From Paramecium tetraurelia (taxonomy: Eukaryota; Ciliophora; Oligohymenophorea; Peniculida; Parameciidae), in contig NW_001799288.1 in NCBI RefSeq assembly GCF_000165425.1, positions 523,067 through 587,066 on the forward strand: 64,000 bases of DNA. The letters are read 5' to 3'. This document shows, piece by piece, positions 5,744 through 61,995 of the stretch; the stretch's first letter is position 1, and each line of letters opens with the position of its first letter. The notes under the pieces are model-generated. The model saw only the letters and a list, made by a program, of their open reading frames with translations, did not search any database and had not been told where the DNA came from. The translations under genes and the position numbers were made by a program.

Positions 5744-7376
5744 TCAATCATTGGTATTTTGCAATTCACATTTTCTCTTATTTTTCCATTTTGAAATCAG
5801 ATCACTTTTATTTAAAAACTAAAATTGGTTATCCTTATAATCTAAAAATTAATTACCGATTGATCTTGTTCCAAAATTAGTTCTTATTAATAAATACATA
5901 ATTATGGAGATTGCAATGGACTCAGAAGAGGAGATTTTCCTATAGACTAAGAATTATTAAAATATAAAGGAGTATGGACAATAGATGCTGATTGATTGAA
6001 TTCAAATAGATTAGGAAATTAATCTTTACAACACTAATGCACATTAATCCCAACACCAATTGATTAATAAACATTGTTTGAGTCTTACTCATTAGTCTGT
6101 TCTTTTATTTTACTGTTCGATAAGCTTAATTAAGGTTATTCTAAATTTTAGAATGAGTCAGAAAATATTTAAGTTGAGATTTTATTTTACTCATTACAGC
6201 TGTTGTTAATTTCTTGCACCTTAAAGCTTCCAAGATAATTAAAATCAGATAAACTGCTCCTATTCCCTAAGCTTTATGTATCACAATTTCCTTAGGTTGA
6301 ATAGCAAAATTAATTCTTGACTTATTAAAGTAAGTAGATATATTGATTTTCTTAGTTTATTGCATTCTAGTCAAGTTTTTCAGTATCAATTTTAACTTTT
6401 TTTGATTAAATAAGAATATCTTCCTTCAATTCTTATTTTTCCTCTTTATGAGGGATGGTTTTCTGAATTTTGTCTTTAGAAGTTTCCATTAAATTACTGT
6501 CTTATTTGCTTTTATGATCTGGGCTCCTTAGTGGTCTTTTTGAGATATATTACTTAACTGCAATAAGTTCATCAATATCATCATCATCTTATTCTTAATA
6601 TATTCTATGAAGTAAACTTTTATATCTATTATTTTAAGATTAAAAACATACCTATTTTTCACTTAATTTTCGGTTCTACCATCTAAATATTTTGAGATCA
6701 TCGACCACCTTTTGCCATTCTCAATTGCTAAAGATAATAATTAATGATCTTCTCTATCTGTCCAGCTTGACCTAATATAAATAAAATATTTATTAAACTT
6801 TTTCAAAATAGGATTTAAATAATTCATCCACCTTTCTCTGACTTGTTTTGGAGTTCTAACGTAGAGACCATTGTTGTGATTATATAATTCCAATGCTATT
6901 TCAGTCCATATATGTTTCCCTTGCTTAACACTATTAAATAATTTAATAATAACTCCTACTTCATCTATGACTTTATGATGTCGTCCTCTTCTTTTTCCCA
7001 AATTAGACTTTTGGCCATTGGGGTTATTAATGTTATCCATCTTTATTTTAAGGTTTATTCCTCTTATCCGAAAATACTTGTTAATTCTTTCCATTCTTCA
7101 GATGTGGGATTGATAGTTTTTTTATTTTTCATCTGAAAATACTTGATCATAGCCAAAATGAATGACTATTTACACTATTAGTCCCATTTTTTATTTAATT
7201 TGTGGTAATTTTGGGTTAAAAGCCTTACATAAATTTATAATTTACTTTTCTGAAATTTCATAAAAATTAGGATTGATTAGGCTTTCCTTGGTTTTAAATT
7301 GATTTCTATAATAACAAGGAATGTCTATTTCTTAGTAATTTCTCAATTTATTCAAGAAGTCATGGAAATTTTGCAT
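5744..7376 (-). CDS. R2R3-type Myb DNA-binding protein
   Basis: Two adjacent Myb/SANT repeats are clear: repeat one from LIWEKEEDDIIKSQ through WTEIALELYNH to RTPKQVRERWMNYL, and repeat two SSWTDREDHQLLSLAIENGK...WSMISKYLDGRTENQVKNRY. Conserved Trp spacing and the NQVKNR recognition-helix motif support sequence-specific DNA binding, so a transcription factor or CDC5-like role is likely. The ~70-residue N-terminal extension is unrelated; the long C-terminus is Ser/Asn/Gln-rich, as expected for a regulatory tail. Four introns (25, 29, 26 and 23 nt; two end in AAG) give 510 codons, 509 aa. Start ATG 7374-7376, stop TGA 5744-5746. A second Myb gene (46013-47202) has three repeats and is not a close copy. 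Confidence 0.85.
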
Positions 7377-9003: not shown

Positions 9004-9699
9004 TCATGATTTATCTAGAAGATCTGCAACTGTGTACATTCTTCTAAATGTTTTTTAATTAGATTTCGGTTTTTCCTCATTTGGATCAATAACTTTGATT
9101 TAAATTTGTTTATTAAATGAAACTATTTTCTTTCCAGGATTGAATTGTGGAGAATAGTCTTCCTTTTCAATTGGTTGAAGTGAAATTTATTTACTGTGCT
9201 TAAGTCTATTGAAATTTGGTTTTTATTATTATTATTTTAAATCCTAATTATCTAACTCAAAGAAATCAAAAATATCAGCATGTTCTCTACTGTTAGAGCT
9301 TTTTCTTTTTAGAATGCTTTTTAATTAAGTCTGCTAATCTTCAATTTGATCATCTTTTCTTAATCTACTTCGATGAGTAGATTCCTATTATTTAATTAAA
9401 GGTTTGAGCACTGTATGCTTCTTGTCTTATCTAAATATTTCTCTAATGAGTTCTTTGCGCTAGATTTCCATACGTGATGTAATATGATCAGCATTGGATT
9501 CGACCTATGAGATTTTGAATAAGTTAAGCTAATCCATTCCTTTTGACGATTTGAAGATTGAGTTGGATTATTGTTTTTGAAACTAATTCTAGGATGGAGT
9601 CTAAACTATTTCAGGCAGAAAACTATTATTTCTGGAGGAAGGACGAGAAAAGTGAATCTATTTTTTATTGTCTTATCTCAGTTGTGCTTGAGAATTCAT
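9004..9699 (-). CDS. low-complexity hydrophilic protein, unknown function
   Basis: A single uninterrupted frame of 232 codons (231 aa) from ATG 9697-9699 to TGA 9004-9006, with TAA/TAG as Gln. The protein is basic and rich in Ser, Gln, Lys and Asp, with no membrane segment, signal peptide or known motif. One mildly acidic patch (HADIFDFFELDNQDL) is followed by a Gln run and then a Lys/Pro-rich stretch. It is likely largely disordered. I do not recognise it; confidence concerns the gene, not a function. Confidence 0.7.
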
Positions 9700-34176: not shown

Positions 34177-35798
<1,622 letters not shown>

Positions 35799-56393: not shown

Positions 56394-56945
56394 TCATAAA
56401 TATGATCTTAAGAATATTTTTTTTTTCAAAACATTTACTTTTCTATTAATACTATTTTTAGGACTCAAAGCAACATCAAAATGAACACTTTTTACTGATT
56501 TTTAAACGTCTGATACTTATTGAAAATATTATGATTTATTATTGATAAGTTCTTTTTTCTTCAAAATGCTACGAATTCCTTAGCTTTAAAAAGAAGTAGA
56601 TAACTTTGTAGTTAATGATCTTGTTTTTTTGGAAGGTTTTTGTTTGCTTTTACTCTTCAGGTAATAGGAAGTCAAATTTTCTTTTGAAATACTCAAAATA
56701 TCAACATGAGGTGAATAAGATTTAGACTTTCGTTTATTTTTTGTGATTAGACGATCATATTGTTCCATGACCAAAAATAATGCAAAGTCATCTTCTTCTT
56801 GAAGAGGCAGAATTTGTTCCAAAGGAATAGGTTTTTTGAGATCTGCGACGAAAATTTGAAAATTGGTGTTTCTTTGTTCCATTTTTAGCTTCATTTCTTA
56901 AATTGGGTCTTAAGGAGTTTTGCAACAGCAAGGTTATGAACCCAT
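56394..56945 (-). CDS. small N-acylated protein with SILK and RVxF-type motifs (predicted PP1 partner, copy 1)
   Basis: Single exon, 184 codons (183 aa), ATG 56943-56945, stop TGA 56394-56396. N-terminus MGSQPCCCKTPQ: Gly-2 plus three Cys, a classic myristoyl/palmitoyl membrane anchor. Middle: IFVADLKKPIPLEQILPLQE, EDDFALFLVMEQYDRLITKN, then a Lys/Ser-rich stretch. C-terminal part: GIRSILKKKE (SILK motif) and 20-odd residues later KSVKSVHFDV, which fits the RVxF docking pattern. SILK followed by RVxF is a known pair of docking motifs for protein phosphatase 1 catalytic subunit. Copy 3 (58231-58737) shares the acylated start, the acidic DDxxL...YxxLI block and the motif pair, so these two are paralogues. 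PP1 binding is inferred, not shown. Confidence 0.75.
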
Positions 56946-57580
56946 ATGTTCTATAAATTCTCTTTTATTTTTAATTAGGTTCTTAAAACCTTCTAATTAA
57001 AAATAAAGATTGTCAAGAATCATTCAGAATTTCTCATTTTTCTCAAATTGGCATAAGAAGCATAATAAGAATGATTATATGAAGCATTACAATATTTCAA
57101 ATAAACTTGTCACTTTACTGATTAGATTTGTCTTATGAATAAAATTGTGTTATCAGTATTTCAAATTTAACCCAAAATATGAATGCATAGTTTTGATTAT
57201 TCAACAAGTATGCTGTTAGAAATTGCAAAAGCAAATCTGTGAACAAGCTATTGAGATATTGCTTTGATTTTCTTTAGAAAAATTAATAAATATTTTTTGT
57301 TTAATAAATTTACTACTTGTTTGTAGTAATTATTATAACAAATAAAATTAATTTAATATAGATATAGAGTAATTACATTATTCTTTAATTTGTAATAGAT
57401 TTTTGATATCGTGCTTCCTATTATTATTGTGTCTAGTATTTTAAATTTATTTAGCAATTGCAATTTACAAAGTTGGTTATTAAATGAATATTTGAGATAA
57501 TGATTGAATAAGAATAATTATTTGTGATTAGAATGAAATTACATTTCATATACACATAAAACAAGTAGTATAATAACAAA
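56946..57580. other. AT-rich intergenic gap
   Basis: About 635 bases between two same-strand SILK/RVxF genes. No coding frame of note; might hide decayed remnants but none was recognised. Confidence 0.4.
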
Positions 57581-58108
57581 TCAAATATATGAAACTATCT
57601 TATATCCAGTTTACTTTGGTAATAGCTTATACTTTTATAACAATTTTTCTGAAAACCTAACTCTTTTTTATTATGAAGAATTTCTTTTTTCCTAATCCTA
57701 AATCACTTCTTTATTTTTTAGAATGCTCTTAGGTGGTATTTCAGGGAGAATGTTGTGAATAAATACACTTTTTGATCGATTTTTAATTCCATCAGTTTTG
57801 TTATTTGCATTTAAATCAGTTATTTCATCTAGCTCTCTTTGAGAATGATTTTTTGTTTCTTGCTTGTAGATCGACTCAACTATACTGATATTTGTTTCTA
57901 CATCGTAATTCTATTTATCTTCATCTTAAGGGAGTTATAATTTAAGTTCATTTATAGTTTCAGTTATCACTGCACACTACTATTGATAAGTCTTCTTAGA
58001 ACTCTTATTCTTAAAGCATTCTCTCTTAATTGTACGTTCTCTTAAATCTGTTATTGATGAATCACAATTTGATATATTTTTTGCACATATCTATTACATT
58101 TGCCCCAT
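57581..58108 (-). CDS. small protein with SILK and RVxF motifs (predicted PP1 partner, copy 2)
   Basis: Single exon, 176 codons (175 aa), ATG 58106-58108, stop TGA 57581-57583. N-terminus MGQMQQICAKN has Gly-2 and one Cys, a weaker acylation signal than the neighbours. The body is Ser/Lys/Asp-rich and probably disordered, with SKSVFIHNILPEIP before the motif region. PPKSILKNKE gives SILK; 17 residues later KRVRFSE is a textbook RVxF site with a following Ser. The tail is basic (KLLQKYKLLPKQTGYKIV). It lies between copies 1 and 3 on the same strand. Sequence outside the motifs is not obviously alignable with them, so common descent is less certain for this copy. Confidence 0.7.
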
Positions 58109-58230
58109 TTAAGTAATTATATTTATATAAATAAAGAAATTAATAAAAAGAAAAGAAAATCTTTAATTCTTACCTCCTCTATGATTAATAAAATTTTATA
58201 TAAAATAAACTCTTATTCAAATATTAACAT

Positions 58231-58737
58231 TCAGATTTTAGTATTACATTATAAAATGAAAGGTAAGAAGGAAACTTTATTATTTTTAAATCTTTTCTAT
58301 AATTGAGATTCCTGAGTATAAGATCGTTTTTTCAATATACTGGTAGGCTTATATGTTGCGTGTGATTGTTTCGATCCATTGTTAATAAGTTAATTGGCAC
58401 TTAAGGATCTGTTATATAGTAATTTTCTCCTTTTGAAGTGCTTTGCGTTCTTAATAGATTCTTTATTCATTTATTATTTATTATCAGCCGAGATCGAACG
58501 ACTTCTAATATTAGAAGAGCAATGAAAGCTTGTGCTTATTGATTTTCTAATAATTAACTATTCATATGTTGCCATAATTTCAAGTAATGAAGCATCATCA
58601 TCTTGATTGATCTGAACAGCTTAATTAAAAAGTGGTTATTTAAAAAAAGTCACATGCATTTCATTATCATTTATAGTATCTTATTACCCATTAGAATAAG
58701 ATTGAGGGCAGCAAAAACAACTAGGATATGTTCCCAT
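58231..58737 (-). CDS. small N-acylated protein with SILK and RVxF motifs (predicted PP1 partner, copy 3)
   Basis: Single exon, 169 codons (168 aa), ATG 58735-58737, stop TGA 58231-58233. N-terminus MGTYPSCFCCPQS: Gly-2 plus three Cys, as in copy 1. Then HVTFFKQPLFNQAVQINQ, DDDASLLEIMATYEQLIIRK (compare EDDFALFLVMEQYDRLITKN of copy 1), a Ser-rich stretch and a basic stretch. KPTSILKKRS gives SILK and, 17 residues on, NNKVSFLPF gives RVxF, the same spacing as copy 2. An additional 3' intron could change the last residues. Inferred membrane-anchored PP1 regulator. Confidence 0.7.

Positions 58738-59539: not shown

Positions 59540-61995
<2,456 letters not shown>

Follow-up and report, generated by a model that had tools for sequence, protein, structure and literature searches.

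A lipid-anchored regulator of PP1 is known in CHCHD3/MIC19, which combines a myristoylated N-terminus with an RVxF motif. The docking motifs of other regulators are described in several articles. The RVxF consensus is [RK]x(0,1)[VI]{P}[FW] (PMC4794898), and the SILK class is [GS]IL[RK], which usually lies N-terminal to RVxF in known regulators (PMC9582199, PMC12109034). The lysine of SILK is held by Glu54, Glu56, Asp166, and Glu167 of PP1, and a phospho-switch was reported with Aurora B for the SSILK of KNL1 (PMC9582199). In inhibitor-2 (PPP1R2, PF04979), which docks on PP1, the SILK-type motif precedes the RVxF-type motif (PMC3735429, PMC9582199). In mouse Rif1, SILK (2128-2131) and RVSF (2150-2153) are 18 residues apart, and both contribute to PP1 affinity (PMC5437018). 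Inhibitor-3 (PPP1R11) combines a SILK-type motif, RVxF (40-43), and a CCC motif (60-62) on which binding and inhibition critically depend (PMC10066265).

The window analyzed here, a stretch of 64,000 nucleotides, corresponds to positions 523067-587066 of contig C166 in a genome of 69 Mb and 231 contigs. Its reading frames are open under genetic code 6 (TAA and TAG read as Q), and this code and the duplication pattern fit Paramecium. To judge from their sequences, three neighboring genes in the window (A1, B1, and C1), together with eight genes of similar build that were read elsewhere in the genome, point to an undescribed set of proteins that would hold PP1 at membranes. PP1 targeting in ciliates seems to be little described; no such ciliate family was found in the titles and abstract openings of the open-access papers listed for ciliate PP1, RVxF, and myristoylation.

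Structure of the gene trio

The first-pass annotation had described three adjacent single-exon genes on the minus strand, each encoding SILK followed by an RVxF motif (KSVHF, KRVRF, and KVSF), with the starts MGSQPCCC in the first and MGTYPSCFCC in the third. All three ORFs were present under code 6, the starts and motif pairs were as described, and the product of B1 also begins with MG (Table 1). The identical 17-residue spacing that had been claimed for the second and third genes was found in B1 (to RVRF) and C1 (to KVSF), but it is not strict, as the ohnologue of C1 has 16 residues and the A copies 21-22. In A2 and A3, no in-frame Met precedes the MG codon; A1 and A4 have a further in-frame ATG upstream of it.

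Table 1. Features of the three genes in the window (all positions refer to the window)
Feature	Position	Strand	Frame or residues	Remarks
Gene A1	56394-56945	minus	single frame, 183 aa + stop	MGSQPCCC...SILK...KSVHF; paralogues A2, A3, A4
Gene B1	57581-58108	minus	single frame, 175 aa + stop	MGQMQQIC...SILK...KRVRF; ohnologue B2 (C181)
Gene C1	58231-58737	minus	single frame, 168 aa + stop	MGTYPSCFCC...SILK...KVSF; ohnologue C2 (C181)
A1 N-terminus MGSQPCCC	56922-56945	minus		DNA pattern search of the genome
A1 acidic/hydrophobic block LQEEDDFALFLVMEQYDRLI	56745-56804	minus		common to A and C
A1 SILK	56559-56570	minus	residues 126-129
A1 KSVHF (RVxF type)	56478-56492	minus	residues 152-156
B1 SILK	57716-57727	minus	residues 128-131
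B1 KRVRF (RVxF type)	57653-57667	minus	residues 148-152
C1 N-terminus MGTYPSCFCC	58708-58737	minus
C1 acidic/hydrophobic block QDDDASLLEIMATYEQLI	58552-58605	minus		homologous to the A block
C1 SILK	58330-58341	minus	residues 133-136
C1 KVSF (RVxF type)	58267-58278	minus	residues 154-157

The acidic block that the first and third genes were said to share was borne out, and B lacks it. A and C were homologous by hhalign (probability of 92%, E-value of 8e-7 as a single comparison) over KP..EDD..ME.Y.RL..SILK, but no convincing relationship of B to either was obtained (probability of 3.6%). Thus, the trio represents two independent occurrences of the motif pair, A/C and B, and the original description of the three genes as a local family had to be revised, the more so as a similar architecture also occurs elsewhere in the genome. 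The statement that the proteins have no other recognizable domain stands for the eight proteins of the window families (four A, two B, and two C copies), none of which had a Pfam match above the cut-off; weak matches of P0002 (E-value of 3) and of the copies L011 (best E-value of 0.046) and L014 (best E-value of 1.7) were far below the cut-offs and were ignored. A search for homologues with solved structures yielded none with the A profile and one match with an E-value of 1 with the B profile. In a charge-hydropathy analysis, all 11 proteins read (the eight together with D1, E1, and E2, described below) were on the disordered side. As a guess, it is the acidic/hydrophobic block common to A and C that might bind the target.

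Beside the trio, at 59540-61995 of the window (plus strand), there are frames with repeated zinc-knuckle stretches, which we take to resemble ZC2HC1-type proteins; C181 has retained the flanking DNA.

Paralogues and purifying selection

Protein searches of the whole genome located A2, B2, and C2 on contig C181 within one 10-kb stretch, with the order of the trio kept; because the order and the flanks match those of the window, the two regions form an ohnologous block. A3 (C25) and A4 (C230) are both inside a block duplicated between these two contigs. No further SILK-RVxF pair was found in the 10 kb around A3 or around A4, and the protein searches with B and C gave no match at the C25 and C230 blocks.

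The aligned paralogues had identities of 71% (A1/A2), 68% (A3/A4), 49% (A1/A3), 65% (B1/B2), and 66% (C1/C2). The dN/dS ratios (Nei-Gojobori) were 0.34 for A1/A2, 0.35 for B1/B2, 0.28 for C1/C2, and, as rough values owing to dS of 1.5 and 1.9, respectively, 0.13 for A3/A4 and 0.22 for A1/A3. The range of 0.13-0.35 in five pairs demonstrates that the A-C genes are kept as proteins by purifying selection.

Conservation of the motif pair

Both motifs and Gly2 were retained in all eight window-family copies, all of which are paralogues, while the SILK codons vary synonymously (AGC/AGT, ATT/ATA, TTG/CTC/TTA/CTA, and AAG/AAA). The distance from SILK to RVxF is 16-22 residues in the A-C copies and 9-15 in D and E. 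Among the four A copies, 57 of 183 columns are invariant, and a seven-position mask (S, I, L, K, [RK], V, F) was wholly invariant at a single one of 153 offsets, the real one. The same mask passed at 13/151 offsets in B, 9/144 in C, and 41/215 in E, which are two-row families with little power and in which the mask does not stand out through conservation alone. SILK lay upstream of an RVxF motif in 11/11 proteins read, with D and E having been selected for both motifs. In the 11-row alignment, the invariant columns were M1, G2, SILK (for D and E by selection of those rows), and one F, whose invariance is an artefact for C because the C rows place the Phe of LPF there and not that of KVSF.

Among random 176-aa sequences drawn from the local composition, the frequency of those containing SILK and, 8-40 residues on, a loose RVxF motif was 7.6e-4, and it was 1.9e-4 when the strict form [RK]x(0,1)VxF was required after SILK; shuffled A1, B1, and C1 produced a pair at rates of 1.1e-3, 3.4e-4, and 3.7e-4, respectively. 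The window contains seven SILK occurrences, four of which have the pair (A1, B1, C1, and one loose match at 5785 on the plus strand). Beyond the window, 17 sampled stretches (170 kb) contained nine SILK occurrences in frames of 100 aa or more, none of them with the pair.

The residue before the Ser of SILK is basic in A, B, D, and E, and T or N in C. By analogy with KNL1, this Ser could act as a phospho-switch in A, B, D, and E.

A 231-aa ORF at 9007-9699 of the window (minus strand), starting with MNSQAQL, has KKQIHF near its start, KSILKRK, and, approximately 60 residues on, KKIVSF. It had no Pfam match at E-values up to 1 and has no MG-C start. To judge from these motifs, it is possibly another PP1 docking protein.

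Predicted acylation of the N-terminus

Met1 is followed by Gly2 in all 11 proteins, and the number and spacing of the Cys residues vary: CCC is kept in the four A copies, B has Cys at residue 8, and D and E have Cys at residue 4, which in E is the only one among the first ten residues. A DNA pattern for MGxxP[CSGR]CC (ATGGGNNNNNNNCCNNGYTGYTGY) had exactly four matches in the genome, A1-A4, and none in the reversed control. The N-myristoylation consensus (PROSITE PS00008) has a small residue (S, T, A, G, C, or N) at residue 6. Inspected by eye for this position, A (4/4) and C (2/2) had a small residue, and B (2/2), D1, and E (2/2) did not. An acylated N-terminus is plausible on sequence grounds for A and C, and less so for B, D, and E.

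The window and the 170-kb samples together have 597 first-Met frames with a length of 100 aa or more, and five of these begin with MG and have a Cys within the first eight residues; as many of the frames are not genes, this background rate is a guide only. B1 and C1 were two of the five; the others amount to 3/595, one being a protein kinase ORF.

An ORF at 35076-35798 of the window (minus strand) starts with MGLCRSK and continues into a protein kinase domain (Pkinase, E-value of 1.8e-46) of what we take to be a CDPK-like appearance. This kinase is possibly acylated and perhaps extends past an intron.

Similar genes elsewhere in the genome

A DNA pattern for KSILKK matched 235 places in the genome, compared with 163 in the reversed control. 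We read 27 sites, namely those judged by eye to encode KSILKK among the 100 listed of the 235 places. An RVxF motif followed in the same frame within approximately 50 residues at four of the 27, with some of the other frames or stretches ending sooner. D1 (L068, on C17) encodes MGTCAQC...KSILKK...KSVHF, and E1 (C108) and E2 (C121) encode MGSCQIQ...KSILKK...RSVRF, each in a single frame. L057, in which KSILKK is followed downstream by RNISF, was not counted as a gene because there is no Met in the 36 residues of the frame before SILK. L071, where no RVxF follows KSILKK over 50 residues, was set aside; it contains a stretch LGFKYGEGLG that resembles a G-patch. No Pfam match was found for D1 and E1 at E-values up to 1.

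In D1, E1, and E2, three of these four sites, the first in-frame Met is that of an MG start with Cys4, compared with the 3/595 other first-Met frames that have MG and an early Cys. As their KSILKK and RVxF motifs were selected for, only the MG-C start, which was not used in choosing them, is independent evidence from these genes, and it is the strongest support of that kind. The sequences of D and E are alike along the greater part of their length (37 bits, E-value of 5e-7 in BLAST among the 11 sequences), so that the three genes make up about one or two independent events rather than three. The co-occurrence of the motif pair with an MG-C start, to which the first-pass annotation had pointed, holds for D1, E1, and E2 but does not extend to L057, which lacks a Met, or to the ORF at 9007-9699.

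Besides the copy on C17, D has paralogues at C206:303963-304604 and C199:317095-317706, the latter covering a KSILKK site in frame. Outside the 27 sites read, two additional DNA patterns revealed 29 other KSILKK sites besides A4, and one of the 29 lies, by its coordinates, in this C199 paralogue. In total, at least 13 genes were found (four A, two B, two C, three D, and two E), of which 11 were read as sequences and two are known by coordinates only.

Two KSILKK-encoding sites on opposite strands of C226 (245221, minus; 246689, plus) are 1.4 kb apart and could be another local cluster. A DNA pattern for KSVHF matched 182 places, compared with 78 in the reversed sequence; among the first 100 matches listed, cross-matching by eye with KSILKK gave no new member. 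Matches to this pattern with identical letters occur near contig starts, four on C4 (353-1751) and one on C153 (483-497), and are perhaps a subtelomeric repeat.

The PP1 catalytic subunit of the host

L001 was identified as PP1, with PP1-beta/delta (1s70) as the best match (E-value of 6e-145), and L003 as a C-terminal exon of PP1, matching PP1-gamma (1it6; E-value of 1e-40). Residues are given in our own numbering. The four acidic residues that hold the SILK lysine are all present in L001 (LELEAP and IDEK). The RVxF groove, which we take to consist of Ile169, Leu243, Phe257, Arg261, Val264, Leu289, Met290, Cys291, and Phe293, is complete in the L001 and L003 alignments. Asn86, mentioned in PMC10066265, is also conserved. 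Judging from these alignments, the genome encodes a near-canonical PP1c in which the grooves for SILK and for RVxF are both intact.

Proposed function and alternative explanations

We consider, with a probability of roughly 0.6, that the A-E proteins, small and for the most part disordered, target PP1 and are anchored by acylation of the N-terminus; in this explanation, we infer PP1 binding, acylation, membrane location, and targeting rather than inhibition. Their anatomy, in which MG-C is followed by approximately 120-160 residues predicted to be disordered, SILK, a gap of 9-22 residues, RVxF, and a tail, is consistent with a tethered bivalent docking protein. With the C-terminal SILK and RVxF motifs seated in its two docking grooves, PP1c would be gripped at both and keep a free active site, which would make targeting more likely than inhibition. 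Lipid modification of the N-terminus, which has Gly2 and one to three Cys up to residue 10, would keep the complex at a membrane, where the tethered PP1 may act on membrane or cortical substrates. Somewhat short of an even chance is the broader and tentative proposal that the five groups, together 13 genes or more, form in this ciliate a dedicated superfamily of membrane-tethered PP1 receptors, in which an acylated N-terminus and a SILK-RVxF clamp, the main features in common, would provide an interchangeable toolkit for different membranes, built by duplication and perhaps convergence.

The motif pairs might instead be due to chance or serve another partner, in fast-evolving disordered proteins of unrelated function. 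Pairs are expected at approximately 3e-4 to 1e-3 per protein of similar size, which by inference gives tens of spurious pairs over tens of thousands of genes, and the isolated SILK of Scribble was judged unlikely to explain PP1 binding (PMC8569552). Nevertheless, retention in 8/8 copies, the unique mask invariance in A, the appearance in three neighbors at once, the recurrence together with MG-C, and a SILK-before-RVxF order as in most known regulators (PMC9582199, PMC12109034) make this explanation improbable.

PP1 docking may also be real without general anchoring, with A and C acylated and B, D, and E cytosolic. The failure of B, D, and E to match the consensus at residue 6, the lack of demonstrable homology of B to A and C, and the MNSQ start of the ORF at 9007-9699 all agree with this, but MG is kept in B1, B2, D1, E1, and E2 together with a Cys at residue 8 or 4, and we regard such a division as rather unlikely. 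For A, the best alternative would be that these proteins bind PP1 as inhibitors, with the N-terminal cysteines (CCC in A, CFCC in C) taking the role that CCC has in inhibitor-3, where it engages the active site, and not that of an acylation site. The conservation of CCC in all A copies would suit such a role. The CCC of inhibitor-3 lies C-terminal to RVxF, however, and the cysteines here lie approximately 120 residues before SILK; a fixed Gly2 with Cys of varying number and spacing fits acylation better, and E has just one Cys up to residue 10. We therefore hold an inhibitor-like role to be quite improbable. With targeting by an anchored N-terminus as the preferred reading, the interpretation of the first-pass annotation is partly supported; what it described as a local trio is now seen as an architecture that recurs at several places in the genome, for which PP1 binding and acylation are predicted.

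A lipid-anchored SILK-RVxF set, if true, would provide handles on how PP1 reaches the cortical and ciliary membranes of ciliates, and would exemplify the retention of docking motifs and an anchor in proteins whose intervening sequence mostly drifts.

Comparison with known PP1 regulators

The order of a SILK-type motif before an RVxF-type motif is shared with inhibitor-2. Membership in that family was rejected, as IPP-2 was absent among the Pfam matches of the eight window-family proteins at E-values up to 10. The search of the genome with the IPP-2 profile gave no match, but neither did the control genomes, so that absence from the genome does not follow; no HYNE motif was seen by eye. We know of no N-terminal MG-C in inhibitor-2. 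Inhibitor-3 is similar in uniting a SILK-like motif, RVxF, and CCC in one small protein, but it differs in motif order and spacing, the CCC of the A type being at the extreme N-terminus behind Gly2 (homology was compared by the Pfam scan only). The C-terminal region of Rif1 resembles the trio in its canonical SILK upstream of RVSF, and KNL1 does so in its SSILK. Rif1 and KNL1 differ in being large nuclear or kinetochore proteins that are not known to carry a lipid anchor. CHCHD3/MIC19 is comparable as a lipid-anchored regulator and differs in having RVxF beside the anchor, a CHCH domain, a mitochondrial location, and no known SILK.
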